Shown here: piece after piece, positions 40,357-63,760 of the stretch
How positions within the stretch are numbered: position 1 is the stretch's first letter
How the letters are laid out: each line of letters starts with the position of its first letter
DNA from: Sanghuangporus weigelae
Taxonomy: Eukaryota > Basidiomycota > Agaricomycetes > Hymenochaetales > Hymenochaetaceae
Length of the DNA stretch: 64,000 nucleotides
Direction of reading: 5' to 3'
NCBI GenBank assembly: GCA_033182465.1
Contig: CP137318.1
Coordinates: 4,340,001-4,404,000, forward strand
Made by a program: the position numbers and the translations under genes
Notes under the pieces: generated by a model
Told to the model about the DNA's origin: nothing
The model's input: only the letters and a program-made list of their open reading frames with translations
The model's database searches: none

Positions 40357-40656
40357 TTACTCTTCATCGCCCCACTCAGGTTTCCGTCGTAACTCTTGCG
40401 CTGTTCCAAACGCAAGTTCGTCCCCAGTGCCATCATTATTGGAAACTTCATTGCCAGGCCCCTTGGGTGGGGATTGTTCACCGATGAACTTTAACGCTCC
40501 CACAATGTCTCCTGCTTCCATGAGTTCGAGCGTCCTTCGGAGCGAACTGTTTTGATCCTTAAAGTATTGCACCTGCTGGCTCCACATCAATATGTCACGC
40601 TTCGTCTCCATGAATTTCCATATAAAGATTGGCGCGAAGAACCTTAGCTGTCTCGC
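40357..40656 (-). pseudogene. 3' part of a host gene split by gypsy copy A
   Basis: This is the C-terminal coding part (ending GTAQELRRKPEWGDEE, stop at 40357) of the gene whose 5' part lies at 52964-54106. Its last residues before the break read ARQLRFFAPIFIWKF. Removing copy A and one CTCGC duplication fuses the two parts with no frame change. A helical region (DILMWSQQVQYFKDQNSSL) precedes a Gly/Asn-rich tail. Function unknown. Confidence 0.8.
40652..40656. repeat. Target-site duplication of gypsy copy A, left
   Basis: CTCGC is repeated at 52964-52968 directly outside the right LTR. Confidence 0.92.
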
Positions 40657-42168: not shown

Positions 42169-42169
42169 T

Positions 42170-42181
42170 TGGATCGAAAGA
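42170..42181 (+). other. Gypsy copy A primer-binding site
   Basis: TGGATCGAAAGA begins one base after the LTR end. It would pair with a tRNA 3' end of ..TCGATCCA. The exact tRNA was not determined. Confidence 0.65.
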
Positions 42182-42229
42182 TCACTCGCTAGTTTTACCA
42201 CCACCTCTCACGGGCAAGGTTCTTGGCTA

Positions 42230-42571
42230 GTGTTTTATCGAGGCGAGGACCGTCGACCTCAAGTCCCTATCGACGTTACTAGTTTCGAGACTAGTACCCA
42301 TATCGAATCCTCAGGACAAGTGCACATCCTGGAGAACGACAAACCCGATTCACTTAAATCACACATCTACTATCATAACCCCTACAACGACGAAGTGTAC
42401 CTAATAGCAAAGGCATCTGGTAGCCCTGCAGTTGGGAGCACGCAAACAACAACCACGAAAGTAGCAGCAGTCCCTTCCACTATTGCTACATTCGACGAGA
42501 AAGGAACTACTTGGTTAACAGCACCAAGGAACAATAACCCTGAAGCATCAGGCGAGAAACGAAGTTCATGA
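42230..42571 (+). CDS. Gypsy copy A leader ORF, about 113 residues
   Basis: Open from a GTG (no ATG) at 42230 to TGA 42569-42571, which overlaps the next ORF's ATG as ATGA. The residues are polar (TSFETSTHIESSGQVHILEN). It may be the tail of a frame begun upstream by splicing or a non-AUG start, or a chance ORF. No domain. Confidence 0.3.
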   Translation: MFYRGEDRRPQVPIDVTSFETSTHIESSGQVHILENDKPDSLKSHIYYHNPYNDEVYLIAKASGSPAVGSTQTTTTKVAAVPSTIATFDEKGTTWLTAPRNNNPEASGEKRSS

Positions 42572-43602
42572 ACCGATCAGGAAACGCCAACAACAGAAGT
42601 AACGGTCATCGAACGAACGAACGGGCGAACGATAATCAAACGAGGTTCACACCTAGATCCCTCGACGAACGAGTTCAACATATCACCAACAGGCTACGTA
42701 GTCTGGAAAGCGATCACGACATACTATACGCGACAACGAACCACAGCATATTGTATCCACCAGTGATCAGAAGGCTACAAGAAAGGGTTGAACGACTGGA
42801 AGAACGAACTGCAAACACGGGGCAGTCAAACAGTCTACCAACCGGAGCATACGCGACAGCAGTAGGAGATCGATTCGAAGCACTAGAAGCAACTACTCAA
42901 AGAATTGGAGCACAAGTAGCAGCTCTAGAGAGATATACTCTGGAATTGGATCGAGCAGCAGGAGCACTCAATCATCGGGTCATAGACGGAAACGGAGTAC
43001 TTGACCGAGAGCTCAACGCTATCCGGAACAGGATTACTGCTCAGGAACAACAACTACAAACGATTGAGACGAGAGTCGGAGAGCTTAACAGGACAGCTCT
43101 AGATCAACCAAGGATTGTTCAAGACATCCATAACCTGCGAGAAGCCCTACTCCAACTAGGACAAACAATCGAGTCGAGTCAACGCACCTACGCAGCTATA
43201 CTCACATCGGTACAGACAACCGAAACTACCTCAAGGAACATACTCGAACACGCTCAACGAATTCGAGAAGTAGCTCAGGCAGCACAACGCTGGGAATACT
43301 TTCTACCAAGAGAGAGAGCCCAACAGGAACAGAGTTCTGACGAATCAGTGTCCTCAGACGAAGAAGCATCACGAAGGCCATTCTTACTCAGAACCCCACC
43401 TCGAACGGTTATCATCCAAGTACCAACAGTACCTGCAGTACCAGCAAGTGGTTCAGTAGCAACCCAAGCGCCAGAGAATCCACCACCACCATCCTATTCA
43501 CCACCAGCAGTGCCCATAAGCACTTACGATCATGTCGACAACCGACCAGAAGGTGCAAGCACTGGAGCAGCAACTACAGACTCTTCAGACACAACTCTCT
43601 AA
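42568..43602 (+). CDS. Gypsy copy A pre-Gag ORF, 344 residues, coiled coil
   Basis: ATG 42568 to TAA 43600-43602. Long heptad-like stretches (for example RLQERVERLEERTANTGQ and RDRITAQEQQLQ-like segments) predict an extended coiled coil, followed by a Pro-rich tail (APENPPPPSYSPPAVP, which contains a PPxY-type late motif, PPSY). It overlaps Gag by 71 nt in another frame. It could be a structural or matrix-like protein of the particle; PPxY motifs recruit ubiquitin ligases in other retroelements. That role is inference. Confidence 0.65.
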   Translation: MNRSGNANNRSNGHRTNERANDNQTRFTPRSLDERVQHITNRLRSLESDHDILYATTNHSILYPPVIRRLQERVERLEERTANTGQSNSLPTGAYATAVGDRFEALEATTQRIGAQVAALERYTLELDRAAGALNHRVIDGNGVLDRELNAIRNRITAQEQQLQTIETRVGELNRTALDQPRIVQDIHNLREALLQLGQTIESSQRTYAAILTSVQTTETTSRNILEHAQRIREVAQAAQRWEYFLPRERAQQEQSSDESVSSDEEASRRPFLLRTPPRTVIIQVPTVPAVPASGSVATQAPENPPPPSYSPPAVPISTYDHVDNRPEGASTGAATTDSSDTTL

Positions 43603-44620
43603 ACACAGCATCAAGCTTCCGAAGTACTATGGCAAGCGAAGCGAAGATATTGATCTGTGGATTAGTCGATGTATCTCGAAGCTGGCACAGCATGGAGTCA
43701 AGGATGAGGAGGAGATCGCAAAGAGCCTATTCGCAGCACTCGAAGGCGATAGCTACGATTGGTTTGCAGAGAAGAATACCCTAACATCATTCGATGCCAA
43801 TGGGAAACTGAAACCGGTACCTGCAATTATCGCTGCAACAAACGGAATGTTCGCATCACTCAAGGACATGCTGAACTGGATGAGGATCCGAGCAGGACAT
43901 CCGATCATTGGAGAACAGGAAGCCCTATTCCAACTACTATGCATCCAGCAGAAAGGAGCAAGCATTAGGGCGTACAACGACGAATTCCGACGACTCAAAG
44001 CACGAGCACCAGACACGATGGATAAGCAGATGCTCAAGTACATCTATGTCAAAGGACTAGACATGTGGGTCAAACGACGAGTCGAATCTGTACAACCCGA
44101 CGCTTTCGAGAAGAACGACCTCGATGCATGGATGGAATGGACAAGCAACCTAGCAAACTCTGATGCCAGGCAAAGGCTCATGGGTAGTCAAACATACACC
44201 CCGAGATTCAAATCGAACGGACAGTCATCTTTCCGACCACCAGTACAAACAACGAAACGAGATCCAGACGCCATGGATGTAGATGCACTCCGAGGCTTGC
44301 CGAAGAAGGGAGGCAAATGCTACAACTGTGAAAAGTCAGGACATTATGCAAAGGATTGCAAGGCACCAAGGAAGCAAAAGGGTTCTTCCTCTAAGCGGCC
44401 GAAGAAGACTAATGGTGTAAAACGGAGGACGATGACAACACGAACAATCGATTTCAAGGAAACATGTCCCGATCCACACTGCCGAAGGCCAGTCCACTAC
44501 GACCATGTAGCATGGGCTAAAGGCGACGAATCAGCAGGATGGACTTGCAAGCATGACGAAGAATACCGAAACAACATTCGCAAATCCCTAGCAAGTAAAG
44601 AGCAACAGGGAAAAGATTAA
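43532..44620 (+). CDS. Gypsy copy A Gag, 362 residues
   Basis: Retrotransposon Gag: an N-terminal coiled coil (VQALEQQLQTLQTQL), then the capsid-like retrotrans_gag region (about residues 25-215, with IKLPKYYGKRSEDIDLWISR and IRAYNDEFRRLKARAP), a CCHC zinc knuckle (CYNCEKSGHYAKDC) and a basic tail followed by a second Cys/His cluster (CPDPHCRRPVHYDHVAW..CKHD). Starts at ATG 43532 inside the previous ORF and stops at TAA 44618-44620. A slippery heptamer just before the stop leads into pol. Confidence 0.92.
   Translation: MSTTDQKVQALEQQLQTLQTQLSKHSIKLPKYYGKRSEDIDLWISRCISKLAQHGVKDEEEIAKSLFAALEGDSYDWFAEKNTLTSFDANGKLKPVPAIIAATNGMFASLKDMLNWMRIRAGHPIIGEQEALFQLLCIQQKGASIRAYNDEFRRLKARAPDTMDKQMLKYIYVKGLDMWVKRRVESVQPDAFEKNDLDAWMEWTSNLANSDARQRLMGSQTYTPRFKSNGQSSFRPPVQTTKRDPDAMDVDALRGLPKKGGKCYNCEKSGHYAKDCKAPRKQKGSSSKRPKKTNGVKRRTMTTRTIDFKETCPDPHCRRPVHYDHVAWAKGDESAGWTCKHDEEYRNNIRKSLASKEQQGKD
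44608..44614 (+). promoter_or_regulatory. -1 ribosomal frameshift heptamer at the Gag stop
   Basis: G GGA AAA in the Gag frame, followed by GAT TAA. A -1 slip continues as AGA TTA AGA CCT and stays open through 44725 into pol. It therefore fuses Gag to pol without a break and explains the absence of a Gag-pol reading frame. Confidence 0.7.
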
Positions 44621-44724
44621 GACCTCCATCGAACGAGACTGCGCGATGTGAGTGTAACAAGGGTGACGAGAAAGGTTTCAACAACCAGTGTTTCAAACCT
44701 CCTGGGTTCAACCCCAGTGAAGCG

Positions 44725-47700
44725 ATGTACAATAAGCGATTGCCAATACAAGCATTGCATCCCCGATTACCTATTCGAGTGAAGGTTGGAACAAAGACCC
44801 TAGCAGTCAAAGCGTTAATCGATTCCGGAGCTACATGCAGCACGATACACCCCAACTTGGTACGACACTACAGCCTATTCAAAAAGAGGCTTGATCACCC
44901 TCGACCTTTGAATAATGCAGATGGAAGTCCCAACCAAGGAGGAGCAATCACGCACGAGGTCTACACATTAATTTTTGATGGACCTAGACCGCAGCCACAA
45001 ACGTTGGCAGTAGCAACCACAGGACAGGATCAAGTGATCCTAGGAATTGACTATTTGGCCAAAGTCAATCCCGAAATTGATTGGAAGAATCAAGTATGGA
45101 ATCGGAATGGTAATTCGATACCATTCGAGCTCAACGTCATACGAGCTACCAAGAAGCGAAGGCACAGGAAGCGCAAACGGAAACGGCAAACGAAAGGCAA
45201 ACCTGACAAGACAAGACCTAGGCATAACACGAAGCAACAGGCTCAGGACAGAGACAACTATCGACACTCTGGAGCACCAGGAATAATATTTGCGCCAAGG
45301 AGAGACAACAACGGACACTCTCACGAAATGAAGCCACAAGTGAAGCCGGAAGCAAGACCAGCAACACCAAGACTGGAACAGGCAAAACAGACGCCAGAAG
45401 TGAAGAGTCCGAGCACGGAAAATATACCAGACTCTGCAACGAAACAGCCACAACAGGAAACGGCAAACAAGCATCATCGAGATGAGGAGGAAATAAACTA
45501 CACTCCCAAGCGATGGAAGAAACAGGCACCACAAGGAACGAGTATAGTGCAACGACGACCAAGGCACATACCGAGACGGATGATCCCAGCATGGCAATTG
45601 TACCAGACATCCGAAGGCGAAACAGAAGAGATAACAGGCAAGCATAGCCTAGACGAACAGGAGGAAATAAACGACTCTCCGAAACGTTGGAAGAAACAAC
45701 CACCACAGAAGATACATCCACTGAGGCAAAACATGCCGGAAGATGAAGAACTCTGGCCATCACCAGAAGAAAACCCGGGCATGAAGTATAGGATACGACC
45801 ACGAAAGACACGGTATCCAGAGAAGCCAGTGGCAGGCATTATACGACCGAGAACGGCATCGTTAATGCGAGGAGCTAGTCCCACACCGAAGCGTACAAGA
45901 TGGGCAGACAACGAAAGCGATATCGAGATGCAAGACGAGCAGGAGACAACAGAAGACACTCCTATGCACGATATAGAGCCAGAAGACATTGAAAGTCTTA
46001 GGACGACCAACCAACCAACTACCCTTACCAGAAAGGAAGAGCTCGCTGCAAAGCTAGAGCTAGACATCAATCGAAATTGGTCACCAAGGCAGCAGAACCA
46101 AGTCTCACAGCCTCTGAACAAAGCGAGTTCAGTATCCCAGCAGTATTCTCAACAAAAGGCAGCTGCAGAAGGACTACTAGGAACACAGAAACGAGATTGG
46201 CGAAAACTCCTACCAAAGGAAATAGAAGACTACGCAGATGTCTTTGATCCTGACAAGTCAAGAAGGTTACCCAAGCATACGAAATGGGATATGGCAATTA
46301 ACCTCAAAGAAGGAGTACCATTACCGAAACCGAGGCCTATTATCAAGCTCACACGAGAAGAGCAGGCAGCACTCGATGCTTATGTCAAAGAGTTACTTGA
46401 CAAAGGATGGATTGAAAAGGTTCAACCACATGAACCATGTCCGGTAGCAGCACCAGTCTTCTTTGTAGGAAAGAAAGACGGAGGAGCACGAGCAGTAACC
46501 GATTACCGAGACATCAACGACACGACAGTATCAGACCCATACCCGATACCGATCATGAGTGTTCTCCCAGAGAAACTGGAGAAAGGAAAATTCTTCTTTA
46601 CACTCGACATGCGATCAGGTTACAATAACCTGCGAATCCGAGAAGGAGACGAGTGGAAGGCAGCATTCCGAGTTGGCAATGCAGTCTACAAGCCAAAGGT
46701 CATGATGTTTGGAATGAAGAACTCACCTGCAGTATTCCAACGATTCATGAATGACAACTTCGAATATTGGCTCAGGACAGAAGAAGCACTCAACTATTTG
46801 GACGACCTTATTGGTCAAGCACAAACTGAAGAGGAACATTGGAAACTCCTCAGGGCAATTCTACAGAAATGCCGAGAGCTCGACATTTACCTCAAAATCG
46901 AGAAATGTCACTTCCTCCAAACCCAGCTCGACTACTTGGGATTTGTAGTAGGAACGAAAGGCATCCAGATGGATCCTTATAAGCTCAAAGCTATTCACGA
47001 ATGGCCAGTGCCAAAGACGAAACGACAAGTTCGAAAGTTCCAAGGATTTTGTAACTTCTACCGAAGATTCATCAGGAACTATGCCGATACATTCGCACCT
47101 ATTGGCGACCTTATCAAAAAGGATCGCAAGTTCATATGGGCAGAGGCACAAGATAAGGCATTCGAAAGTATCAAGAAGGCATTCGAAACGGAAGTCGCAT
47201 TGGCAATGCCAAAGCCAGACAAACCATATACATTGGAAACCGATGCATCCGATGTAGCGATTGGTGCAGTCTTACAACAAGAAGACAACCAAGGAGAACT
47301 GAGACCTTTAGGTTTCATGTCGAAAACTCTAACGAACACCCAACGAAACTATCCGACGCATGACAAAGAGATGCTAGCAATCATGGAAGCACTCAAGCAT
47401 TGGAGACACCTATTGGAGGGAACCAAAGAACCAGTAACAATCCGAAGCGATCATGCAAACCTCCGATACTTCATGACAGCTCAGAATCTATCGAGACGTC
47501 AAGCGAGATGGGCATTAGAGTTATCACGATATAACTTCAAGATTCTCCATTGGCCAGGCAAGAAGAACCAAGCTGACGAGCTATCACGACGATCCGACTA
47601 TATGCCAGAGGACAAGGACAACTTAGGAGTTACCTTATTACCTCCTGATACGATCAAGCAACAAACATTGCGACGCACAGAGATCAACGGTCTATACAAG

Positions 47701-49203
47701 CTAGAAACTGAAATGGTCACTATCTCTGATCCTATTATCCGAACGATCAAGAGGAACTACAATACCGAGGAGGCTAAGAAGGAAATTCAGGCGATCAAGC
47801 AGAGCAACGGCTACAGTTACAGGAACGGCTTGCACTACGTAACCAATGCATTATATATCCCGCCGTCCGCCAACCTACGAGCGTTGCTAATCCGAAGGCG
47901 CCATGATCACAAACTTGCAGGCCACCCAGGAGCAGAAAAGACCATAGAGCTTGTAAAGCGATCATACTATTGGCCGAAGATGGAAGAAATGATCCGAGCA
48001 TATACCGCAACCTGCGACATATGTCAGCGTGCAAAACCGATTCGACAGTTTCGAAATCCGCCGCTCCAACCGTTGGAGGCACCACATCAACCATGGGAAA
48101 CCATAACCTGTGACCTGATTACCGACTTACCAGTCAGCAATGAAGGCTACAGCGCGATACTCGTTATAGTGGACAAACTCACTAAAATGGGGAAGTTCAT
48201 TCCTTGCCAAGGAATACCCAATGCTAAGCAGTTGGCACGTTTGTTCCGCCAACATGTCTTCAAATACTACGGGGCCCCTAAACGAGTAATCTCCGACCGA
48301 GGTAGCAACTTCACCGCGCAATTCCTCAAGGAGTTCTGCAGACTCATCGATGTCGATTGGAAAACTAGTACAGCGTATCATCCACAAACCGATGGTCAAA
48401 CCGAGCGACTAAATCAAGAGCTTGAACAGTACTTACGCTGCTATGTGTCCTACCGACAAACAGATTGGGCAGAGTACATCGATATAGCAGAATTCGCCTA
48501 CAACAACAGGAAGCACAGTACTACACATCAGTCACCATTCTATACACTGTATGGATGGCATCCTCACCTGGACGTTGCGGAGACCGGTGATTCAAACGTC
48601 CCAGAAGCAATAAATCACCTAGAGGAGCTTCGACAAGTACAGCAAGAAGCCTATAATTCGATTAGGCAAGCGAATGAAGCAATGAAGCTTTATGCAGACC
48701 TGCATCGAGGCAAACTGCCAGAGTACAAGCCGGGAGACGAAGTGTTACTAGACATGAGGAATCTCAGTCGATTGGAACCAACGAAGAAACTTGCAATGAA
48801 ATGGGCAGGGCCTTATAAAGTCGAGAAGGCAGTCGGACAAGTGTCATTCAGATTACGCTTACCCGAAACCCTTCCGATCCACCCAGTGTTTCATGCGAGT
48901 CTTCTCAGGCCTTACAAACGAAAGGAATACCCTGGAAGACCCACTTTGGATGAACCACCACCTATTGAAGTGGAGGGAGAAGCAGAGTACGAAGTGGAGA
49001 CAATTCATAACACAAGACGTCATCGGAGCAAGGTCCAATACCTTATCCAATGGAAAGGATACCAGGAGCGAACATGGGAGCCACTTGACAACCTCAAGAA
49101 CTCCTATCAAATGATCGAAGCATTCCATAAAAAGTATCCTCAGGCAATCCAGCCACCGAACCTTAACCAATGGATCGCCGCACGAAAACGAATGAGGCAA
49201 TAG
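44725..49203 (+). CDS. Gypsy copy A Pol, 1492 residues from first ATG
   Basis: Protease, reverse transcriptase, RNase H, integrase and chromodomain polyprotein. Protease has ALIDSGATCSTIH (Asp at about 33). A long basic/acidic linker (about 150-480) follows. Reverse transcriptase spans about 520-720 with YLDD at about 691. RNase H begins YTLETDASDVAIGAVL. The integrase zinc domain is HDHKLAGHPGAEKT..CDICQRA (about 1059-1110); the core has D (CDLITDLP, about 1129), D (SDRGSNF, about 1190) and E (TERLNQELEQY, about 1226). The C-terminal chromodomain is YEVETIHNTRRHRSK..YLIQWKGYQERTWEPLDNL (about 1420-1470). The frame is open upstream to the frameshift heptamer, so the native protein likely starts as Gag-Pol. 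Chromodomains direct such elements to heterochromatin, yet both copies here landed in genes. Confidence 0.97.
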   Translation: MYNKRLPIQALHPRLPIRVKVGTKTLAVKALIDSGATCSTIHPNLVRHYSLFKKRLDHPRPLNNADGSPNQGGAITHEVYTLIFDGPRPQPQTLAVATTGQDQVILGIDYLAKVNPEIDWKNQVWNRNGNSIPFELNVIRATKKRRHRKRKRKRQTKGKPDKTRPRHNTKQQAQDRDNYRHSGAPGIIFAPRRDNNGHSHEMKPQVKPEARPATPRLEQAKQTPEVKSPSTENIPDSATKQPQQETANKHHRDEEEINYTPKRWKKQAPQGTSIVQRRPRHIPRRMIPAWQLYQTSEGETEEITGKHSLDEQEEINDSPKRWKKQPPQKIHPLRQNMPEDEELWPSPEENPGMKYRIRPRKTRYPEKPVAGIIRPRTASLMRGASPTPKRTRWADNESDIEMQDEQETTEDTPMHDIEPEDIESLRTTNQPTTLTRKEELAAKLELDINRNWSPRQQNQVSQPLNKASSVSQQYSQQKAAAEGLLGTQKRDWRKLLPKEIEDYADVFDPDKSRRLPKHTKWDMAINLKEGVPLPKPRPIIKLTREEQAALDAYVKELLDKGWIEKVQPHEPCPVAAPVFFVGKKDGGARAVTDYRDINDTTVSDPYPIPIMSVLPEKLEKGKFFFTLDMRSGYNNLRIREGDEWKAAFRVGNAVYKPKVMMFGMKNSPAVFQRFMNDNFEYWLRTEEALNYLDDLIGQAQTEEEHWKLLRAILQKCRELDIYLKIEKCHFLQTQLDYLGFVVGTKGIQMDPYKLKAIHEWPVPKTKRQVRKFQGFCNFYRRFIRNYADTFAPIGDLIKKDRKFIWAEAQDKAFESIKKAFETEVALAMPKPDKPYTLETDASDVAIGAVLQQEDNQGELRPLGFMSKTLTNTQRNYPTHDKEMLAIMEALKHWRHLLEGTKEPVTIRSDHANLRYFMTAQNLSRRQARWALELSRYNFKILHWPGKKNQADELSRRSDYMPEDKDNLGVTLLPPDTIKQQTLRRTEINGLYKLETEMVTISDPIIRTIKRNYNTEEAKKEIQAIKQSNGYSYRNGLHYVTNALYIPPSANLRALLIRRRHDHKLAGHPGAEKTIELVKRSYYWPKMEEMIRAYTATCDICQRAKPIRQFRNPPLQPLEAPHQPWETITCDLITDLPVSNEGYSAILVIVDKLTKMGKFIPCQGIPNAKQLARLFRQHVFKYYGAPKRVISDRGSNFTAQFLKEFCRLIDVDWKTSTAYHPQTDGQTERLNQELEQYLRCYVSYRQTDWAEYIDIAEFAYNNRKHSTTHQSPFYTLYGWHPHLDVAETGDSNVPEAINHLEELRQVQQEAYNSIRQANEAMKLYADLHRGKLPEYKPGDEVLLDMRNLSRLEPTKKLAMKWAGPYKVEKAVGQVSFRLRLPETLPIHPVFHASLLRPYKRKEYPGRPTLDEPPPIEVEGEAEYEVETIHNTRRHRSKVQYLIQWKGYQERTWEPLDNLKNSYQMIEAFHKKYPQAIQPPNLNQWIAARKRMRQ

Positions 49204-49378
49204 TTGCATCACATGCACTCCACCCGATGGAGCCGCTTATGGATCCACAATAGAGATGATGAGTAAGGTCCCCAATGACCTTACCAAGCGATGACATCAA
49301 TGTGGCACACCAAAGCGAGAGCAGAGATAGAAGAATTAGGCAAGACACCGCCGACATACCAACAAGATGGTATAAAAC

Positions 49379-50455
49379 ATGGAGAACTTCGAGCTAAGGA
49401 ACAACAACTCGAATCTCAACAGCTCTACTTCACTGCAGACGAACTACTACTCAGCTATGCCTATCTTCGATGAGCTACATGCATTCTGTCAACCAGAAGA
49501 TGCACCAGAATGGACATTTGCACTTAGGCCACCGACCGAACGTTATCAATGGCCACAGCTGTGCAACCGATTCAACGAAGAGAACTACGAAGACGAAATC
49601 GTACCCCTATGCCCAGGAAAGTACTTCGACGATCTATTTGACAAGTGGAATGCAGTCCACCACAACCGAGACGAAATACCCCATCTTATGATGGCGAATC
49701 ACTCAGACGAGTGGTTATTCAAACTCAGTAACCCTCGAGACGCAGCATTACGCCGACTCAATGATGATGCATTTCTAACCTACGCGATCGAACTCGAAAC
49801 ACAAGCATTACATCGAGGCAAGATCGACTTTAGGCAAGAAACGACATACAAGAACATCATGGGCATCTATCATTCGGCAATTCAAATTTGCGCCTACCGA
49901 CGAGACATGACTACCGCAATTCTTAACCGAATGATGCGATGGAGTCACTATCATCCGATGAGCATCGATGCGATGAAGTACATTATATACATAGCCGACC
50001 AGACGGGCTTCTATGCATCCCACACCATGCAGTTCATGACGGTACTCAACATGACGAAGTATTACGAAGGAACGAGATACCGAACGGTTATTGAAGCGAG
50101 GAACTCTACTACGGACGAGGTACCACTCGACAACATCGAGCACCACGTAGTCGAAGGCAAAGAGGTTAACTACGACCCTCATTACCTTATGGAACTCAAC
50201 AACCGAGAGGAAGAAGCCAGAGAGAAACTACAGGCTACACGACACCCATTGCTGGAAGATCTGATGATCTCAGTCTACCAGTACCCGAACGAACTCTACC
50301 AGCCGGACGAGATGCTTACTATGTCGGAACAGGAGGACATGTACATACACTCCGACGATACAGAGTCAAGTGAAGAAGGTGAAAGCAGGGAACTATATAC
50401 CCCAGCGAACTCGGCCCAGACTACACCTGAGGCTGAAGAATCCGAAGATTTGTAA
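49379..50455 (+). CDS. Gypsy copy A post-pol accessory ORF, 358 residues
   Basis: ATG 49379 to TAA 50453-50455, in the position where env lies in retroviruses. There is no signal peptide or membrane segment, so it is not an envelope. The middle is rich in Tyr, His and Met (for example MDAMKYIIYIADQTGF-like segments) and the C-terminus is acidic (HSDDTESSEEGESREL). It is identical in copy B. No family recognised. It needs its own mRNA, reinitiation or splicing for expression. Confidence 0.75.
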   Translation: MENFELRNNNSNLNSSTSLQTNYYSAMPIFDELHAFCQPEDAPEWTFALRPPTERYQWPQLCNRFNEENYEDEIVPLCPGKYFDDLFDKWNAVHHNRDEIPHLMMANHSDEWLFKLSNPRDAALRRLNDDAFLTYAIELETQALHRGKIDFRQETTYKNIMGIYHSAIQICAYRRDMTTAILNRMMRWSHYHPMSIDAMKYIIYIADQTGFYASHTMQFMTVLNMTKYYEGTRYRTVIEARNSTTDEVPLDNIEHHVVEGKEVNYDPHYLMELNNREEEAREKLQATRHPLLEDLMISVYQYPNELYQPDEMLTMSEQEDMYIHSDDTESSEEGESRELYTPANSAQTTPEAEESEDL

Positions 50456-51011
50456 ACAACTCTTCTTTTATGCAACCCCTTTCCCATATCGTGACCCGAC
50501 ATGGTCAATTATGCATTTCATTCTTACCTTATGATATTTATGGTCACATCCGACCAAATTATGCTTTATGCACCTCTTTATTTCACGCTTATTCGGCCAA
50601 CCAGCACAAATGAAGCACTATGCAGAAGTGTCAAAGAACCTACAAGGGCCTAGACATTTTGTATATTGTTTTATTGTGCCGGCTCCGAATTAGCAGATTA
50701 TGCCTACTTTTTATTATCCTCTATGCAACGGAGAAGCCAAAAGTTTACGTGAAGTCACTCCCTTGCATCATGCTAGGATGTGCATTCACGCTGAAAGGCA
50801 CTCCAATTACACTCTTTCTTCGAAAAACTCCATTTGGGGGTTGAAGAGCCGTAGGTAAACACCTGGAACTTCACTCCCAAATTGGTATAAAACTTATTCA
50901 TTAACGACTTAATGATTTTAATGACTTTATAATTTCTTTCTTATCACTTTCAATTGCGTCATATTCTTTACATGATGCACATTTCATATTCATATCCCTT
51001 CCCACCACCCT
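50456..51011. other. Spacer between the accessory ORF and the antisense gene
   Basis: No ORF of note. Both neighbouring genes converge here, so it should contain their 3' ends. Confidence 0.5.
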
Positions 51012-51327
51012 TTACAAGTCAATGTCTTCCCAGACACCCTTTTCACGACGTTCCTGCGAAGCAATACCTGCATTTTCGACGACTGGATCGATATCCTCAA
51101 CGTCATAACCGAGCGCGAGGTGAACTCGAAGCGCAACAGTCGTAACATTGCGCTGGAACGATTGCATTTCAAAGTCGGCCTCCTAGAGGAAGATTAACGA
51201 CTTGAAACGGCACAGAGCATGCATCACTTACCTGAGCACGCCTCTTACGCTCCAAAATCCAATGATTTATGCCGAAAATCGCGACAATAACGACAAAAAC
51301 AGTAACAGCAGCGGCGACTTTCAACAT
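51012..51327 (-). CDS. Antisense spliced gene of gypsy copy A: 88-residue single-pass membrane protein
   Basis: On the strand opposite to gag-pol, exon 1 (51327-51232, 32 codons) encodes MLKVAAAVTVFVVIVAIFGI, a clear membrane helix, then NHWILERKRRAQ, a basic stop-transfer segment. A canonical 49-nt intron (51231-51183, GTAAGT..CTAG) leads to exon 2 (51182-51012), whose 56 codons encode a mostly polar domain ending REKGVWEDIDL. The total is exactly 89 codons with the stop. An in-frame ATG lies further up at 51360, but the splice-supported start at 51327 directly precedes the helix. The same gene is in copy B. The intron is on the antisense strand, so it would not be removed from the genomic RNA and can persist through retrotransposition. 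Function unknown. Confidence 0.7.
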
Positions 51328-51438
51328 TTTGGAGCAGAGATGATGATGGTCTGATAGCAAAAATCAACCATCACTAGGCGACCCTTTATCCGAGCTTTCT
51401 CACGGATTAGGATGAACATTTCTCCGAAAGTTCATCTT
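51328..51438 (-). promoter_or_regulatory. Probable promoter region of the antisense gene
   Basis: The 110 bp between the antisense ATG and the polypurine tract contain GATAAAG (antisense strand) about 65 nt before the ATG and a small hairpin (GATGAAC pairing with GTTCATC). The location is the only room for an antisense promoter short of the LTR itself. Inferred. Confidence 0.3.
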
Positions 51439-51446
51439 AGGGGGGG
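51439..51446 (+). other. Gypsy copy A polypurine tract
   Basis: AGGGGGGG five bases before the 3' LTR. Confidence 0.85.
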
Positions 51447-51451
51447 TGTAG

Positions 51452-52963
51452 TGAAAGGATCCGCTCAAAATCTCGCATCAGGATCAACGCGATCAACAGA
51501 TCTACACGATCAGCTTTCCAAACGCGACCGGTAACCAAGCCAGCTATCAAAGGCCCAAGCAATCGAGCGGCCTAGGCAACAGTAACCCGTTACCACCCGA
51601 GCGCTAGAAGCACCGAAGCGGATACGTAATCCCGCTAACAGCTAACACCGCCGACCGCCTATTACCGCGGACTACCACTCTAACGCCGCCGACCAAGCAA
51701 CCAGAGCGACCTCGATCAAAAGAAGCGATCAAACTTCTTAGAAGTCCAGAAGCACAACTACTAAAGCCTAAACGCTAAAAGGCTAAAGGCTAATAAGGTT
51801 TATGGAGACCTCACTGGCATTTCAGCACTGTCAAGTCTGTGCACGAGTTTACATGGTCCTTTATGAAGTATACTACTTAGTATGCACGGCAACGGTTGGT
51901 ACGCGTGACTGTCACATCGAAACCGAGCGACACCTTCAGGATACAATGCATTCCAATCCACCAAGCCCAATAGTACCCAAGAAACGAGAGGAGCTCACGA
52001 TCACAACTCGGACCCCTCGAACTGCGAACCCGATAACTTGGAGAATGATTGGATGGTATAGACCGGAGTTGCACACACCATGTCCAGCATCTACGATACA
52101 GGCAAACCTTTATTTACCGAGAGATGCGAACCTGGAAACCAAGCAATTACAACTCCTTATACAACGAAGGATATGGCGCTACATTCGAGATATACGATAC
52201 GAAGGCAAAGCATGGCTAGTCACCAGAACCCAGCAGAACCCACCAGCAGAGCTTATGCAGTTCATGATATGCCTTGGACCATACTCTACACCGACCCGAC
52301 ACCTTAACACTGACGTGCGAGTTATGCTTACCCTCGCTGGACCTCGAGATGAATTCCGAAGAATCACATACCGAGCAGCCTACATCGCTCCAAGAGCAAA
52401 GATGCCACTCAATGACGGCAATGACATCGTTATGGAGTACTGACAGCGGAGCATTCCATATCGGAGCACCACCTCTATTGTCTCAGTCAGCAACTCCAAA
52501 GAATTCTGTCATAGTGGAGACGACCTTACAAAGATTGGAGCAAAGTGGAGCGAAGCGCAGCAGGATGACAAAGGAACAGATGTAATGGTGGAGGAAAGTG
52601 GAGTAAAGTGGAGACAGGATGAGTAAGAAATAGGACGGAAAATGGAATATCTGGGAGCATAAATAGTTGTAGGATTAGGCCCTCATTTCCCCATCTTTCG
52701 ATCCTCTTAACACACTGGTGTAAAGCTTGCCCTACAGCGAGCTATTACTGTGTGCTTTGTACTATCACGCCTCTTGGAAATCCCAATCTGCTTTACTATT
52801 ACCTCGTATCTGAAAGCATCCATAACTCGGACCGCGACTAGGAAGGCTAGTAAGGGACCGCGTGGTACAGCCAGACGTGGGTAGATAAGATCACCTCTGC
52901 ACAACACACCGCTGCTTAGGCAAAAGGATCAAACCGGTGTAACCCCGGGCCTACTCCCTAACA
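51452..52963 (+). repeat. Gypsy copy A 3' LTR
   Basis: 1512 bp, equal in length and, at the ORF level, identical to 40657-42168. The outer boundary is fixed by the CTCGC duplication at 52964-52968. Confidence 0.95.
51802..52443 (+). CDS. LTR-embedded ORF, 213 residues (3' LTR copy)
   Basis: Identical in sequence and position to the ORF at 41007-41648. In this copy transcripts from the LTR promoter would run into host DNA. Confidence 0.35.
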   Translation: METSLAFQHCQVCARVYMVLYEVYYLVCTATVGTRDCHIETERHLQDTMHSNPPSPIVPKKREELTITTRTPRTANPITWRMIGWYRPELHTPCPASTIQANLYLPRDANLETKQLQLLIQRRIWRYIRDIRYEGKAWLVTRTQQNPPAELMQFMICLGPYSTPTRHLNTDVRVMLTLAGPRDEFRRITYRAAYIAPRAKMPLNDGNDIVMEY

Positions 52964-54106
52964 CTCGCCAGAGTTGCACTCCCTTCTTCAATCTGCTCGT
53001 ACTCCAGCACAGCACGATTTCTACCGTCGCAAATGAATACACAACGACCGGCATCGAAGAGAGCTTTGTAAGGTAGATCCTTCATTAAAATTGAGAAAAC
53101 GCTCTTGTCCTGGATTGCTCGAAATCTCTGGTAACGACGCTCTTTGTCAACGAACTCGTTGCCACGATCGTCAACGTGCTCATTGCCACCACCCTCAGCG
53201 TACTCATTGCCACCACCCTCAGCGTACTCATTGCCACGATCGCCAACGTACCCACTGCCACCATCCTCAGCGTACTCATTGCCACCATCCTCAACGTACT
53301 CATTGCCACCATCCTTATTGCTGTCGAAGTCCCGTTGGAACTGGTAACAGGACTCCCACGCCCGGACAACCTGATCGGTAAACTTCCACCATATCACCTC
53401 ACGCTTTTGTGGGTCGTACTGGTTGACAAGATCATCACTGATGAAATAATCACTCATAGCAAGGATGAATCCTTGTGCGACGGCAGCACAAATATCATCA
53501 AGGTGCTGACAGACAACGATAGCCTCGTGGCTTCCCTTGTACTAGAAACAAGACAACATTAGACAAAATGCGCTTGAATGCTATGCGGCATGCTCACCTT
53601 AAGTGTCTTAGATTCCAACAGTCTCGTTACTTGTACGAGTTGCTCCAGCACCTCAGCTTGTTCCCCGATATCGCTCTTAACCGTTGTGATAACCTTTTTG
53701 AGTACTTCCTCGTGTTCTTCAATCTCCTTCTCTTTCGTTTCAAGTTTGCTGGACAACAATTGGACACGATCATGGATTTTGGCGATCGCATCCACCGCCT
53801 TGTCGATAACAGCAGCAGAACCAGCTTCACCTTTCGACGAGGACAAGCGTGATACCAGGTCATCTCTCTTCTTCAAGACGTCCTTGAGCGCCACTATAAC
53901 TCTGATTAGTAATGCCAAACGGGTAGCATGCAGCATCCCAAAGGTCACGTACGATCCAAAGCTTTATCCTGTTGTCCTGTAGTGTCTGTAGTGTCTGTGT
54001 CCATGGGTGGAGAGGTTGAGAGAGATCGTAGGAGATCGATGGACCAGGTTAGGTCAGGATGGTGGTAAGATGAAAAGTAACGGCTGACTCGAACCTCGTC
54101 TGACAT
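52964..54106 (-). pseudogene. 5' part of a host gene (coiled-coil protein) split by gypsy copy A
   Basis: Start ATG 54106, exon 1 54106-53953, intron 53952-53900, exon 2 53899-53598, intron 53597-53542, exon 3 from 53541 to the insertion at 52964. Exon 1 is Ser/Thr-rich (HPDLTWSIDLLRSLSTSPP). Exon 2 is a strong coiled coil (DRVQLLSSKLETKEKEIEEH and following). Exon 3 has HLDDICAAVAQGFILAMSDY and a 9-residue tandem repeat (GGNEYAEDG-like, about seven units). With the 3' part (40651-40357) the three exons total 154+302+873 = 1329 nt, exactly 442 codons plus stop. The ORF now ends three codons inside the LTR. Unknown family, apparently fungal-specific. Confidence 0.82.
53155..53320 (-). repeat. 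27-bp coding tandem repeat in the split gene
   Basis: About seven units encoding variants of GGNEYAEDG. The repeat explains the three overlapping open frames in this stretch (Thr/Ile-rich and His/Cys-rich readings on the plus strand), which are shadows. Confidence 0.8.
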
Positions 54107-55417: not shown

Positions 55418-56929
55418 TGTTAGGGAGTAGGCCCGGGGTTACACCGGTTTGATCCTTTTGCCTAAGCAGCGGTGTGTTGTGCAGAGGTGATCTTATCTAC
55501 CCACGTCTGGCTGTACCACGCGGTCCCTTACTAGCCTTCCTAGTCGCGGTCCGAGTTATGGATGCTTTCAGATACGAGGTAATAGTAAAGCAGATTGGGA
55601 TTTCCAAGAGGCGTGATAGTACAAAGCACACAGTAATAGCTCGCTGTAGGGCAAGCTTTACACCAGTGTGTTAAGAGGATCGAAAGATGGGGAAATGAGG
55701 GCCTAATCCTACAACTATTTATGCTCCCAGATATTCCATTTTCCGTCCTATTTCTTACTCATCCTGTCTCCACTTTACTCCACTTTCCTCCACCATTACA
55801 TCTGTTCCTTTGTCATCCTGCTGCGCTTCGCTCCACTTTGCTCCAATCTTTGTAAGGTCGTCTCCACTATGACAGAATTCTTTGGAGTTGCTGACTGAGA
55901 CAATAGAGGTGGTGCTCCGATATGGAATGCTCCGCTGTCAGTACTCCATAACGATGTCATTGCCGTCATTGAGTGGCATCTTTGCTCTTGGAGCGATGTA
56001 GGCTGCTCGGTATGTGATTCTTCGGAATTCATCTCGAGGTCCAGCGAGGGTAAGCATAACTCGCACGTCAGTGTTAAGGTGTCGGGTCGGTGTAGAGTAT
56101 GGTCCAAGGCATATCATGAACTGCATAAGCTCTGCTGGTGGGTTCTGCTGGGTTCTGGTGACTAGCCATGCTTTGCCTTCGTATCGTATATCTCGAATGT
56201 AGCGCCATATCCTTCGTTGTATAAGGAGTTGTAATTGCTTGGTTTCCAGGTTCGCATCTCTCGGTAAATAAAGGTTTGCCTGTATCGTAGATGCTGGACA
56301 TGGTGTGTGCAACTCCGGTCTATACCATCCAATCATTCTCCAAGTTATCGGGTTCGCAGTTCGAGGGGTCCGAGTTGTGATCGTGAGCTCCTCTCGTTTC
56401 TTGGGTACTATTGGGCTTGGTGGATTGGAATGCATTGTATCCTGAAGGTGTCGCTCGGTTTCGATGTGACAGTCACGCGTACCAACCGTTGCCGTGCATA
56501 CTAAGTAGTATACTTCATAAAGGACCATGTAAACTCGTGCACAGACTTGACAGTGCTGAAATGCCAGTGAGGTCTCCATAAACCTTATTAGCCTTTAGCC
56601 TTTTAGCGTTTAGGCTTTAGTAGTTGTGCTTCTGGACTTCTAAGAAGTTTGATCGCTTCTTTTGATCGAGGTCGCTCTGGTTGCTTGGTCGGCGGCGTTA
56701 GAGTGGTAGTCCGCGGTAATAGGCGGTCGGCGGTGTTAGCTGTTAGCGGGATTACGTATCCGCTTCGGTGCTTCTAGCGCTCGGGTGGTAACGGGTTACT
56801 GTTGCCTAGGCCGCTCGATTGCTTGGGCCTTTGATAGCTGGCTTGGTTACCGGTCGCGTTTGGAAAGCTGATCGTGTAGATCTGTTGATCGCGTTGATCC
56901 TGATGCGAGATTTTGAGCGGATCCTTTCA
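55418..56929 (-). repeat. Gypsy copy B 3' LTR
   Basis: 1512 bp, inverted relative to the two LTRs of copy A. The outer end begins TGTTAGGGAG on the plus strand. Confidence 0.95.
55938..56579 (-). CDS. LTR-embedded ORF, 213 residues (copy B)
   Basis: Same predicted protein as at 41007-41648 and 51802-52443, with no substitution. See the first entry for description. Confidence 0.35.
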   Translation of the reverse strand: METSLAFQHCQVCARVYMVLYEVYYLVCTATVGTRDCHIETERHLQDTMHSNPPSPIVPKKREELTITTRTPRTANPITWRMIGWYRPELHTPCPASTIQANLYLPRDANLETKQLQLLIQRRIWRYIRDIRYEGKAWLVTRTQQNPPAELMQFMICLGPYSTPTRHLNTDVRVMLTLAGPRDEFRRITYRAAYIAPRAKMPLNDGNDIVMEY

Positions 56930-56934
56930 CTACA

Positions 56935-56942
56935 CCCCCCCT
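56935..56942 (-). other. Gypsy copy B polypurine tract
   Basis: Mirror of the copy A tract (CCCCCCCT on the plus strand), five bases from the LTR. Confidence 0.85.
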
Positions 56943-57053
56943 AAGATGAACTTTCGGAGAAATGTTCATCCTAATCCGTGAGAAAGCTCGGATAAAGGGT
57001 CGCCTAGTGATGGTTGATTTTTGCTATCAGACCATCATCATCTCTGCTCCAAA

Positions 57054-57369
57054 ATGTTGAAAGTCGCCGCTGCTGTTACTGTTTTTGTCGTTATTGTCGC
57101 GATTTTCGGCATAAATCATTGGATTTTGGAGCGTAAGAGGCGTGCTCAGGTAAGTGATGCATGCTCTGTGCCGTTTCAAGTCGTTAATCTTCCTCTAGGA
57201 GGCCGACTTTGAAATGCAATCGTTCCAGCGCAATGTTACGACTGTTGCGCTTCGAGTTCACCTCGCGCTCGGTTATGACGTTGAGGATATCGATCCAGTC
57301 GTCGAAAATGCAGGTATTGCTTCGCAGGAACGTCGTGAAAAGGGTGTCTGGGAAGACATTGACTTGTAA
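57054..57369 (+). CDS. Antisense spliced gene of gypsy copy B: 88-residue membrane protein
   Basis: Exon 1 57054-57149, intron 57150-57198 (GTAAGT..CTAG), exon 2 57199-57369. The protein and intron are the same as in copy A (51012-51327). Here it lies on the plus strand and is opposite to this copy's gag-pol. Its presence with an intact frame and intron in both copies supports it as a regular part of the element. Confidence 0.7.
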
Positions 57370-57925
57370 AGGGTGGTGGGAAGGGATATGAATATGAAAT
57401 GTGCATCATGTAAAGAATATGACGCAATTGAAAGTGATAAGAAAGAAATTATAAAGTCATTAAAATCATTAAGTCGTTAATGAATAAGTTTTATACCAAT
57501 TTGGGAGTGAAGTTCCAGGTGTTTACCTACGGCTCTTCAACCCCCAAATGGAGTTTTTCGAAGAAAGAGTGTAATTGGAGTGCCTTTCAGCGTGAATGCA
57601 CATCCTAGCATGATGCAAGGGAGTGACTTCACGTAAACTTTTGGCTTCTCCGTTGCATAGAGGATAATAAAAAGTAGGCATAATCTGCTAATTCGGAGCC
57701 GGCACAATAAAACAATATACAAAATGTCTAGGCCCTTGTAGGTTCTTTGACACTTCTGCATAGTGCTTCATTTGTGCTGGTTGGCCGAATAAGCGTGAAA
57801 TAAAGAGGTGCATAAAGCATAATTTGGTCGGATGTGACCATAAATATCATAAGGTAAGAATGAAATGCATAATTGACCATGTCGGGTCACGATATGGGAA
57901 AGGGGTTGCATAAAAGAAGAGTTGT

Positions 57926-59002
57926 TTACAAATCTTCGGATTCTTCAGCCTCAGGTGTAGTCTGGGCCGAGTTCGCTGGGGTATATAGTTCCCTGCTTTC
58001 ACCTTCTTCACTTGACTCTGTATCGTCGGAGTGTATGTACATGTCCTCCTGTTCCGACATAGTAAGCATCTCGTCCGGCTGGTAGAGTTCGTTCGGGTAC
58101 TGGTAGACTGAGATCATCAGATCTTCCAGCAATGGGTGTCGTGTAGCCTGTAGTTTCTCTCTGGCTTCTTCCTCTCGGTTGTTGAGTTCCATAAGGTAAT
58201 GAGGGTCGTAGTTAACCTCTTTGCCTTCGACTACGTGGTGCTCGATGTTGTCGAGTGGTACCTCGTCCGTAGTAGAGTTCCTCGCTTCAATAACCGTTCG
58301 GTATCTCGTTCCTTCGTAATACTTCGTCATGTTGAGTACCGTCATGAACTGCATGGTGTGGGATGCATAGAAGCCCGTCTGGTCGGCTATGTATATAATG
58401 TACTTCATCGCATCGATGCTCATCGGATGATAGTGACTCCATCGCATCATTCGGTTAAGAATTGCGGTAGTCATGTCTCGTCGGTAGGCGCAAATTTGAA
58501 TTGCCGAATGATAGATGCCCATGATGTTCTTGTATGTCGTTTCTTGCCTAAAGTCGATCTTGCCTCGATGTAATGCTTGTGTTTCGAGTTCGATCGCGTA
58601 GGTTAGAAATGCATCATCATTGAGTCGGCGTAATGCTGCGTCTCGAGGGTTACTGAGTTTGAATAACCACTCGTCTGAGTGATTCGCCATCATAAGATGG
58701 GGTATTTCGTCTCGGTTGTGGTGGACTGCATTCCACTTGTCAAATAGATCGTCGAAGTACTTTCCTGGGCATAGGGGTACGATTTCGTCTTCGTAGTTCT
58801 CTTCGTTGAATCGGTTGCACAGCTGTGGCCATTGATAACGTTCGGTCGGTGGCCTAAGTGCAAATGTCCATTCTGGTGCATCTTCTGGTTGACAGAATGC
58901 ATGTAGCTCATCGAAGATAGGCATAGCTGAGTAGTAGTTCGTCTGCAGTGAAGTAGAGCTGTTGAGATTCGAGTTGTTGTTCCTTAGCTCGAAGTTCTCC
59001 AT
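57926..59002 (-). CDS. Gypsy copy B post-pol accessory ORF, 358 residues
   Basis: Identical in predicted sequence to the copy A ORF at 49379-50455; intact from ATG 59002 to the stop at 57926. Confidence 0.75.
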   Translation of the reverse strand: MENFELRNNNSNLNSSTSLQTNYYSAMPIFDELHAFCQPEDAPEWTFALRPPTERYQWPQLCNRFNEENYEDEIVPLCPGKYFDDLFDKWNAVHHNRDEIPHLMMANHSDEWLFKLSNPRDAALRRLNDDAFLTYAIELETQALHRGKIDFRQETTYKNIMGIYHSAIQICAYRRDMTTAILNRMMRWSHYHPMSIDAMKYIIYIADQTGFYASHTMQFMTVLNMTKYYEGTRYRTVIEARNSTTDEVPLDNIEHHVVEGKEVNYDPHYLMELNNREEEAREKLQATRHPLLEDLMISVYQYPNELYQPDEMLTMSEQEDMYIHSDDTESSEEGESRELYTPANSAQTTPEAEESEDL

Positions 59003-59177
59003 GTTTTATACCATCTTGTTGGTATGTCGGCGGTGTCTTGCCTAATTCTTCTATCTCTGCTCTCGCTTTGGTGTGCCACATTGATGTCATCGCTTGGTAA
59101 GGTCATTGGGGACCTTACTCATCATCTCTATTGTGGATCCATAAGCGGCTCCATCGGGTGGAGTGCATGTGATGCAA

Positions 59178-62100
59178 CTATTGCCTCATTCGTTTTCGTG
59201 CGGCGATCCATTGGTTAAGGTTCGGTGGCTGGATTGCCTGAGGATACTTTTTATGGAATGCTTCGATCATTTGATAGGAGTTCTTGAGGTTGTCAAGTGG
59301 CTCCCATGTTCGCTCCTGGTATCCTTTCCATTGGATAAGGTATTGGACCTTGCTCCGATGACGTCTTGTGTTATGAATTGTCTCCACTTCGTACTCTGCT
59401 TCTCCCTCCACTTCAATAGGTGGTGGTTCATCCAAAGTGGGTCTTCCAGGGTATTCCTTTCGTTTGTAAGGCCTGAGAAGACTCGCATGAAACACTGGGT
59501 GGATCGGAAGGGTTTCGGGTAAGCGTAATCTGAATGACACTTGTCCGACTGCCTTCTCGACTTTATAAGGCCCTGCCCATTTCATTGCAAGTTTCTTCGT
59601 TGGTTCCAATCGACTGAGATTCCTCATGTCTAGTAACACTTCGTCTCCCGGCTTGTACTCTGGCAGTTTGCCTCGATGCAGGTCTGCATAAAGCTTCATT
59701 GCTTCATTCGCTTGCCTAATCGAATTATAGGCTTCTTGCTGTACTTGTCGAAGCTCCTCTAGGTGATTTATTGCTTCTGGGACGTTTGAATCACCGGTCT
59801 CCGCAACGTCCAGGTGAGGATGCCATCCATACAGTGTATAGAATGGTGACTGATGTGTAGTACTGTGCTTCCTGTTGTTGTAGGCGAATTCTGCTATATC
59901 GATGTACTCTGCCCAATCTGTTTGTCGGTAGGACACATAGCAGCGTAAGTACTGTTCAAGCTCTTGATTTAGTCGCTCGGTTTGACCATCGGTTTGTGGA
60001 TGATACGCTGTACTAGTTTTCCAATCGACATCGATGAGTCTGCAGAACTCCTTGAGGAATTGCGCGGTGAAGTTGCTACCTCGGTCGGAGATTACTCGTT
60101 TAGGGGCCCCGTAGTATTTGAAGACATGTTGGCGGAACAAACGTGCCAACTGCTTAGCATTGGGTATTCCTTGGCAAGGAATGAACTTCCCCATTTTAGT
60201 GAGTTTGTCCACTATAACGAGTATCGCGCTGTAGCCTTCATTGCTGACTGGTAAGTCGGTAATCAGGTCACAGGTTATGGTTTCCCATGGTTGATGTGGT
60301 GCCTCCAACGGTTGGAGCGGCGGATTTCGAAACTGTCGAATCGGTTTTGCACGCTGACATATGTCGCAGGTTGCGGTATATGCTCGGATCATTTCTTCCA
60401 TCTTCGGCCAATAGTATGATCGCTTTACAAGCTCTATGGTCTTTTCTGCTCCTGGGTGGCCTGCAAGTTTGTGATCATGGCGCCTTCGGATTAGCAACGC
60501 TCGTAGGTTGGCGGACGGCGGGATATATAATGCATTGGTTACGTAGTGCAAGCCGTTCCTGTAACTGTAGCCGTTGCTCTGCTTGATCGCCTGAATTTCC
60601 TTCTTAGCCTCCTCGGTATTGTAGTTCCTCTTGATCGTTCGGATAATAGGATCAGAGATAGTGACCATTTCAGTTTCTAGCTTGTATAGACCGTTGATCT
60701 CTGTGCGTCGCAATGTTTGTTGCTTGATCGTATCAGGAGGTAATAAGGTAACTCCTAAGTTGTCCTTGTCCTCTGGCATATAGTCGGATCGTCGTGATAG
60801 CTCGTCAGCTTGGTTCTTCTTGCCTGGCCAATGGAGAATCTTGAAGTTATATCGTGATAACTCTAATGCCCATCTCGCTTGACGTCTCGATAGATTCTGA
60901 GCTGTCATGAAGTATCGGAGGTTTGCATGATCGCTTCGGATTGTTACTGGTTCTTTGGTTCCCTCCAATAGGTGTCTCCAATGCTTGAGTGCTTCCATGA
61001 TTGCTAGCATCTCTTTGTCATGCGTCGGATAGTTTCGTTGGGTGTTCGTTAGAGTTTTCGACATGAAACCTAAAGGTCTCAGTTCTCCTTGGTTGTCTTC
61101 TTGTTGTAAGACTGCACCAATCGCTACATCGGATGCATCGGTTTCCAATGTATATGGTTTGTCTGGCTTTGGCATTGCCAATGCGACTTCCGTTTCGAAT
61201 GCCTTCTTGATACTTTCGAATGCCTTATCTTGTGCCTCTGCCCATATGAACTTGCGATCCTTTTTGATAAGGTCGCCAATAGGTGCGAATGTATCGGCAT
61301 AGTTCCTGATGAATCTTCGGTAGAAGTTACAAAATCCTTGGAACTTTCGAACTTGTCGTTTCGTCTTTGGCACTGGCCATTCGTGAATAGCTTTGAGCTT
61401 ATAAGGATCCATCTGGATGCCTTTCGTTCCTACTACAAATCCCAAGTAGTCGAGCTGGGTTTGGAGGAAGTGACATTTCTCGATTTTGAGGTAAATGTCG
61501 AGCTCTCGGCATTTCTGTAGAATTGCCCTGAGGAGTTTCCAATGTTCCTCTTCAGTTTGTGCTTGACCAATAAGGTCGTCCAAATAGTTGAGTGCTTCTT
61601 CTGTCCTGAGCCAATATTCGAAGTTGTCATTCATGAATCGTTGGAATACTGCAGGTGAGTTCTTCATTCCAAACATCATGACCTTTGGCTTGTAGACTGC
61701 ATTGCCAACTCGGAATGCTGCCTTCCACTCGTCTCCTTCTCGGATTCGCAGGTTATTGTAACCTGATCGCATGTCGAGTGTAAAGAAGAATTTTCCTTTC
61801 TCCAGTTTCTCTGGGAGAACACTCATGATCGGTATCGGGTATGGGTCTGATACTGTCGTGTCGTTGATGTCTCGGTAATCGGTTACTGCTCGTGCTCCTC
61901 CGTCTTTCTTTCCTACAAAGAAGACTGGTGCTGCTACCGGACATGGTTCATGTGGTTGAACCTTTTCAATCCATCCTTTGTCAAGTAACTCTTTGACATA
62001 AGCATCGAGTGCTGCCTGCTCTTCTCGTGTGAGCTTGATAATAGGCCTCGGTTTCGGTAATGGTACTCCTTCTTTGAGGTTAATTGCCATATCCCATTTC

Positions 62101-63656: not shown

Positions 63657-63760
63657 CGCTTCACTGGGGTTGAACCCAGGAGGTTTGAAACACTGGTTGT
63701 TGAAACCTTTCTCGTCACCCTTGTTACACTCACATCGCGCAGTCTCGTTCGATGGAGGTC

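Follow-up and report, generated by a model that had tools for sequence, protein, structure and literature searches.

A probable spliced antisense gene for a small membrane protein in a Ty3/gypsy chromovirus of Sanghuangporus weigelae

The antisense genes of LTR retrotransposons are, for the most part, open reading frames (ORFs) without a shown function. One of them, brtn of Boty, is reportedly the subject of Zhao et al. 2011. As described in the passages that treat these elements, antisense ORFs between pol and the 3' LTR (aORF-3R) include gene23 of maize Grande and those of rice RIRE2, Silene Retand (TRP28) and PvRetro13 (PMC7264820, PMC11963269), and brtn is an antisense gene of a fungal Ty3/gypsy element in Botrytis cinerea (PMC7264820, PMC4227169, PMC8365987, PMC5987419), a CHROMO domain being described for Boty-like gag-pol (PMC4227169). 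A 2020 review, in the part concerned, urges attention to antisense and spliced transcripts (PMC7264820). Among retroviruses, HBZ of HTLV-1, a bZIP factor, and APH-2 of HTLV-2 are encoded by spliced antisense genes at the 3' end of the element and are nuclear regulators for which the relevant section describes no membrane helix, while ASP of HIV-1 is antisense and membrane-associated, with about 190 residues, two membrane segments and a location in the env region, an intron going unmentioned in the same section (PMC10186651). Small or accessory membrane proteins are also encoded by LTR elements outside the retroviruses. The sORF2 of Drosophila MDG1 and sORF2-like proteins, likened to the FAST proteins of reoviruses, have 63–107 residues and a single helix followed by a basic patch, are read from the sense strand, possess an ectodomain of about 30 residues and are often myristoylated, according to the portion of the survey that characterizes them (PMC11952523). 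The Env-like ORF3s of bdelloid rotifer elements are accessory ORFs with membrane segments, 220–230 aa long in Vesta4 and with two membrane regions, and the text on them makes no mention of an antisense ORF (PMC5408684).

We analyzed a 64,000-nt stretch of the genome of the basidiomycete Sanghuangporus weigelae (contig CP137318.1, positions 4,340,001 to 4,404,000; hereafter the window), in which self-comparison, flank reading and Pfam domains delimit a complete LTR retrotransposon of 12,307 nt on the plus strand (40657–52963). Its 3' LTR (51452–52963, 1512 nt) is identical to the 5' LTR (40657–42168) and the element is bordered by a CTCGC target duplication (40652–40656 and 52964–52968), which together indicate a recent insertion. 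An upstream sense ORF of 344 aa (42568–43602), for which Pfam yields only weak, sub-cut-off coiled-coil matches, overlaps gag (43532–44620), which contains a CCHC zinc knuckle above the Pfam cut-off. The pol frame (44599–49203) contains RVT_1, RNase H, rve, a Tf2-1-like SH3 domain and Chromo (E 4e-10) above the cut-offs, with protease models falling just short of theirs. A chromodomain, reverse transcriptase, RNase H, integrase, an LTR pair and a target duplication together mark the host element as a Ty3/gypsy chromovirus. Pol is followed by a third sense ORF, ORF3 (49379–50455, 358 aa), without a match in a Pfam search; its dN/dS between the window copy and other copies is 0.12–0.23, and the six homologues found by protein search all come from four Sanghuangporus species. 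An Rfam search of 40000–53500 returned no match.

The antisense gene (51012–51327, minus strand) is the convergent neighbor of ORF3, situated between the end of the latter (50455) and the polypurine tract (51440–51446), and thus in the same pol-to-3' LTR interval as the aORF-3R. An earlier note on this DNA had proposed a two-exon gene with a canonical 49-nt intron and 88 residues, and this structure is borne out. Exon 1 (51232–51327, 96 nt), with the ATG at 51327, encodes a membrane segment and its basic flank, the intron (51183–51231) has the form GTAAGT...GTTAATC...CTCTAG, and exon 2 (51012–51182, 171 nt including the stop codon) encodes an acidic tail; read from 51327 to 51012, the spliced frame of 267 nt consists of 88 codons plus the stop. 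The note's description of the gene as opposite to gag-pol holds for the strand but not for the position, because the gene does not overlap gag-pol and sits downstream of ORF3. Sequence comparison shows a further copy of the element within the window, in inverted orientation, with the gene at about 57054–57369 on the plus strand.

The note had also stated that no chromovirus gene like this is described, which is too strong in view of Grande, RIRE2, Retand and the brtn gene of Boty, a chromodomain element. Like brtn, the gene is antisense within a chromodomain-bearing Ty3/gypsy element of a fungus; the host of Boty is an ascomycete, and the likeness is one of published descriptions. As far as the available descriptions go, the products of known aORF-3R (gene23, SMC, TRP28) are nuclear or DNA-binding-like, whereas here an intron-containing gene in a basidiomycete chromovirus predicts a short membrane protein, and the latter feature likewise sets it apart from HBZ and APH-2, which it resembles in location and in its predicted splicing. 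Our searches of the open-access literature turned up no account of a non-retroviral LTR element with a spliced antisense gene, of a basidiomycete chromovirus with a gene on its antisense strand, or of a spliced antisense gene encoding a single-pass membrane protein in an element of this kind.

The gene is a regular constituent of a large family. A protein search of the S. weigelae genome located exon 2 at 108 places and a query with a diverged copy added one more; all 109 copies were fetched and aligned. Since only the best candidates are scored in such searches, this total represents a lower bound, and more decayed copies may be missing. Most of these more than 100 copies are near-identical. 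Start, frame and stop are intact in 108, the exception being L051, which has one in-frame stop near the C-terminus. A GT...AG intron is present in all 109 copies, with a length of 49 nt in 106, 50 nt in two and 48 nt in one; in L012 (gene near 5709–6290) a 1-nt deletion has altered the donor to GTAGTG and left the frame intact. Neither an intron-less copy nor an exon indel was found among the 109. The earlier note had argued that an antisense intron, unlike one in the sense strand, can persist through retrotransposition, and its universal retention fits this argument, being expected if the element is copied through sense RNA only. At 105 of the 108 listed ORF3 N-terminal matches the antisense gene is found downstream and convergent (the three without a listed one are C2:3814683, C5:2492171 and C13:1432635), and four of the 109 antisense genes lack a listed upstream ORF3 N-terminal match. 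Occurrence in most copies, together with homologues elsewhere (in Sanghuangporus baumii, see below), is a further trait in common with the aORF-3R.

Two copies, L009 and L051, are diverged, with 55% identity at the level of the antisense protein. L009 (contig C9) lies within a rearranged remnant of an older subfamily, and L051 (C6:1292000–1301900) represents a third subfamily, with an ORF3 that is 49% identical to that of the window and 76% identical to an S. baumii protein. Conservation of the frame and splice sites in more diverged copies had been set beforehand as a test of the gene, and both copies pass it: the exons of 96 and 171 nt and both splice sites are kept, with an intron of 50 nt. 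The length change is confined to the intron, which has one gap column as against zero in the exons, and the 112-nt 3' flank contains 26 gap columns in each of the two copies. Within the intron, L009 and L051 have CTAAT where the window copy has TTAAT, which we take to be a branch-like motif. Identity to the window copy is 68%, 67% and 70% in L009, and 67%, 69% and 65% in L051, for exon 1, the intron and exon 2, respectively. The dS of L051 to the window copy is 0.32 for pol, 1.68 for ORF3 and 1.2 for the antisense gene; judged from these distances, the L051 element looks like a mosaic and, since its pol is close while ORF3 and the antisense gene are both far, the last two appear to have diverged or moved jointly, as a single module.

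Selection on the predicted protein was assessed in several ways. The dN/dS between divergent copies, a check proposed in the earlier note, is 0.17–0.30 (Nei–Gojobori) for six representatives drawn from the 107 main-family copies compared with L009 and L051, values that are imprecise because dS exceeds 1 and is near saturation; for comparison, pol of the window copy gives 0.11–0.29 against other copies. Among the six representatives dN/dS lies between 0.11 and 0.60, with 2–3 synonymous changes underlying the two high values, and between L009 and L051 it is 0.46, the changes showing no bias towards third positions (24, 18 and 25 at positions 1–3). Relative to L024, third codon positions change most in the diverged copies (39 of 84 and 43 of 96 changes). 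The 107 main copies contain 64 distinct variants, of which 33 are synonymous and 31 are nonsynonymous, compared with 45.0 nonsynonymous expected (P = 0.0001), and none of the 64 creates a stop (P = 0.022). In this test the same base changes were placed by shuffling and counted against a real copy, and as the copies are related the variants are not fully independent. L009 has 40 amino-acid changes where 49.3 are expected (P = 0.002) and L051 has 42 where 53.8 are expected (0 of 5000). At the level of sequence, this substitution pattern is that of purifying selection on the antisense protein, and the antisense gene is very likely real and selected. The pol frames of L013, L014, L051 and L010 contain seven, six, eight and one stops, respectively, and in L010, L013 and L014 the antisense frame is nevertheless intact; the coexistence of an intact antisense frame with a broken pol says little, as the former is more than 10 times shorter.

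Three other readings of the frame were rejected. A chance ORF is made very unlikely by the intactness of 108 of 109 copies, by the substitution pattern and by the 88-aa homologues in S. baumii. Coding on the sense strand of the element is contradicted by the failure of L009 and L051 to keep the longest stop-free stretches, whose lengths in codons are 70, 73 and 67 for the window copy, 39, 57 and 47 for L009, and 43, 52 and 37 for L051. An unspliced, intron-retained product is discounted since such readings stop at different points in the window copy, L009 and L051.

The coding part of L051 is not its best-kept stretch. In this copy the 3' flank is 81% identical to that of the window copy and the 5' flanking stretches are 93% and 80% identical, as against 65–67% in the exons, whereas in L009 the 3' flank is only 51% identical. 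The best conserved of six stretches compared is a 124-nt block beside the 3' LTR (51328–51451), defined by sequence comparison, which lies upstream of the antisense ATG, includes the polypurine tract and is 85% (L009) and 93% (L051) identical to the window copy, compared with 65–70% for the exons. Folded as the sense strand it gives a z-score of -2.07, with 8 of 200 shuffles as good, and as the antisense strand -1.70. Across 25 distinct sequences of the block, variation affects 15 of 78 paired and 26 of 47 unpaired positions, with some of the changes disrupting sense pairs; because the structure was derived from one of these same 25 sequences, the evidence for a fold is suggestive only. Such observations would suit a conserved non-coding or sense-strand function to which the antisense frame is incidental. 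That reading leaves the deficit of amino-acid changes, the lack of exon indels across 109 copies and the decay of the sense ORFs unaccounted for, and we regard it as very improbable. The block itself is a candidate antisense promoter or leader, or a candidate sense RNA structure; the polypurine tract within it, and possible hairpins on both strands, suggest that it might function both in the sense RNA and in antisense expression.

Beyond S. weigelae, species were compared through their predicted proteins, and the antisense protein was found in one of them. With one sequence as the query, 5.8 billion proteins gave a single match, an S. weigelae protein, and using an alignment of the diverged copies as the query added five clusters from S. 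baumii (18, 2, 1, 1 and 1 members), each of exactly 88 aa and 56–61% identical. The S. baumii proteins ACEPAG_5826 (antisense protein) and ACEPAG_5827 (ORF3) carry consecutive tags on the same contig of 2,780,392 nt, which suggests the same arrangement of ORF3 and antisense gene in that species. ORF3 homologues were recovered from S. sanghuang and S. vaninii as well, and the antisense protein was not found among the predicted proteins of these two species, in which the gene may be absent or unannotated. The public gene models are themselves predictions, as the annotation was made with BRAKER3 and the section describing it mentions no RNA-seq (PMC12001456). The normal fungal structure of the gene, and the fact that antisense intron-bearing insertions can be carried without loss, would be compatible with a host gene captured as a passenger. 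We consider this origin quite improbable, in view of the selection pattern, of the constant place of the gene within the element in the copies examined and of the 5.8 billion proteins among which, at the sensitivity of that search, no homologue was detected outside Sanghuangporus. The conserved frame and intron, the selection pattern and the S. baumii homologues make the gene look, as the earlier note supposed, like a dedicated antisense gene of the chromovirus, and that it is a spliced protein-coding gene serving the element is the explanation that, on the sequence evidence, we hold to be quite probable.

The predicted protein has a simple plan. An N-terminal membrane helix with a basic segment had been anticipated, and the sequence indeed contains one hydrophobic segment (approximately residues 3–24; maximum of 2.65 in a 19-residue Kyte–Doolittle window, residues 4–25 being free of charge) followed by a basic patch at residues 26–31, with a charge of +3 in four of the five proteins tested and +1 in L009. 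The tail is acidic, from -3 to -10 in the five proteins (L051 being cut at its stop), and the N-terminus reads MSKV, or MLKV in the window's element (three copies) and in L051. AlphaFold2 models a helix over residues 3–55 from one sequence (pLDDT 74.4) and a weaker structure from six (pLDDT 62.9, pTM 0.31). A Pfam search of the protein gave nothing above cut-off, and a sequence search of the PDB no convincing match (best E 0.33); by Pfam, a bZIP or other nuclear-factor domain is absent, the protein having a membrane segment instead. Under the positive-inside rule for membrane protein topology, the basic patch predicts that the tail faces the cytosol. Since nucleocapsids are usually basic and the tail is acidic and probably cytosolic, a tentative guess, less likely to be right than wrong, is that the tail anchors Gag/RNA complexes or particles at a membrane, whether internal or plasma, and thereby makes assembly or trafficking more efficient.

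The same plan of 88 residues, a single membrane helix, a basic patch and a helical tail corresponds in hydropathy and charge to the general architecture described for sORF2 (PMC11952523), and would be expected of a FAST-like passage protein that takes particles across septa or from cell to cell at hyphal fusion. The agreement ends there: about three residues precede the helix, which begins at residue 3–4, in place of an ectodomain of about 30 residues, the MGxxxS/T motif is lacking, and the gene is antisense, whereas all sORF2-like candidates reported in the corresponding part of the survey are sense-oriented (PMC11952523), so that we find a passage protein of this type improbable. A broader possibility, unlikely enough to be called speculative, is that the membrane protein acts at a step that is new for chromoviruses, such as membrane-bound assembly or passage at septa or hyphal fusion, and is expressed from a provirus in which the sense promoter may be shut off. 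If true, a non-retroviral element would possess a membrane equivalent of HBZ.

For the preferred reading, that of a spliced protein-coding gene, we infer the following course of transcription, splicing and membrane insertion. RNA polymerase II would start within the 3' LTR or the 124-nt block and read leftwards, host splicing would remove the 48–50-nt intron from the antisense RNA, and the mRNA would end before or within the convergent ORF3. Translation would yield the 88-residue protein, which the N-terminal helix would insert into a membrane; the basic patch and the helical, acidic tail would lie on the cytosolic side. In the sense genomic RNA the intron would be reversed, hence unspliceable, and passed on unchanged.

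Ty1 restrains its own copy number with a Gag fragment and antisense RNA, and the S. weigelae gene might be self-limiting in a comparable manner, its transcript, its membrane protein or both restraining copy number through sequestration of Gag or through pairing with sense RNA that feeds RNA interference. The convergent antisense position near the 3' LTR would give an RNA complementary to the genomic RNA, and control by double-stranded RNA is proposed for plant antisense genes in the relevant part of a review (PMC7264820). A role of the RNA alone would leave the protein-level selection pattern unexplained, and an element with more than 100 mostly near-identical copies does not look tightly restrained; we therefore think self-limitation unlikely.

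With more than 100 copies, three subfamilies and two species, the gene offers evidence for selection on an antisense protein. Its intron is a clean molecular mark, as it can be lost in antisense mRNA only, and a membrane product would raise anew the question of what a fungal retroelement, presumed to be intracellular, does at membranes.

Several other features of the window deserve mention. A sense ORF of 213 codons lies entirely within the LTR (51802–52443, and also in the 5' LTR). Searched without its Met (51805–52440), it is recognizable in L009, L050, L051, L010, L013 and L014 with 2, 2, 4, 0, 2 and 0 stops, respectively; its dN/dS to the window copy is 0.22–0.29, with changes chiefly at third positions, and it has no match in Pfam. 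A protein gene encoded by an LTR would be unusual. The inverted element copies (44381–52963 and 55418–64000) are 99.988% identical across 8583 nt and separated by 2454 nt, and a third copy, identical across a 601-nt query, is found about 15 kb past the second, outside the window. The interval between the two elements includes a 24-nt tandem repeat (53147–53338) within long frames, and a stretch of about 1.1 kb at 34977–36078 matches its own reverse complement at 95.8%.
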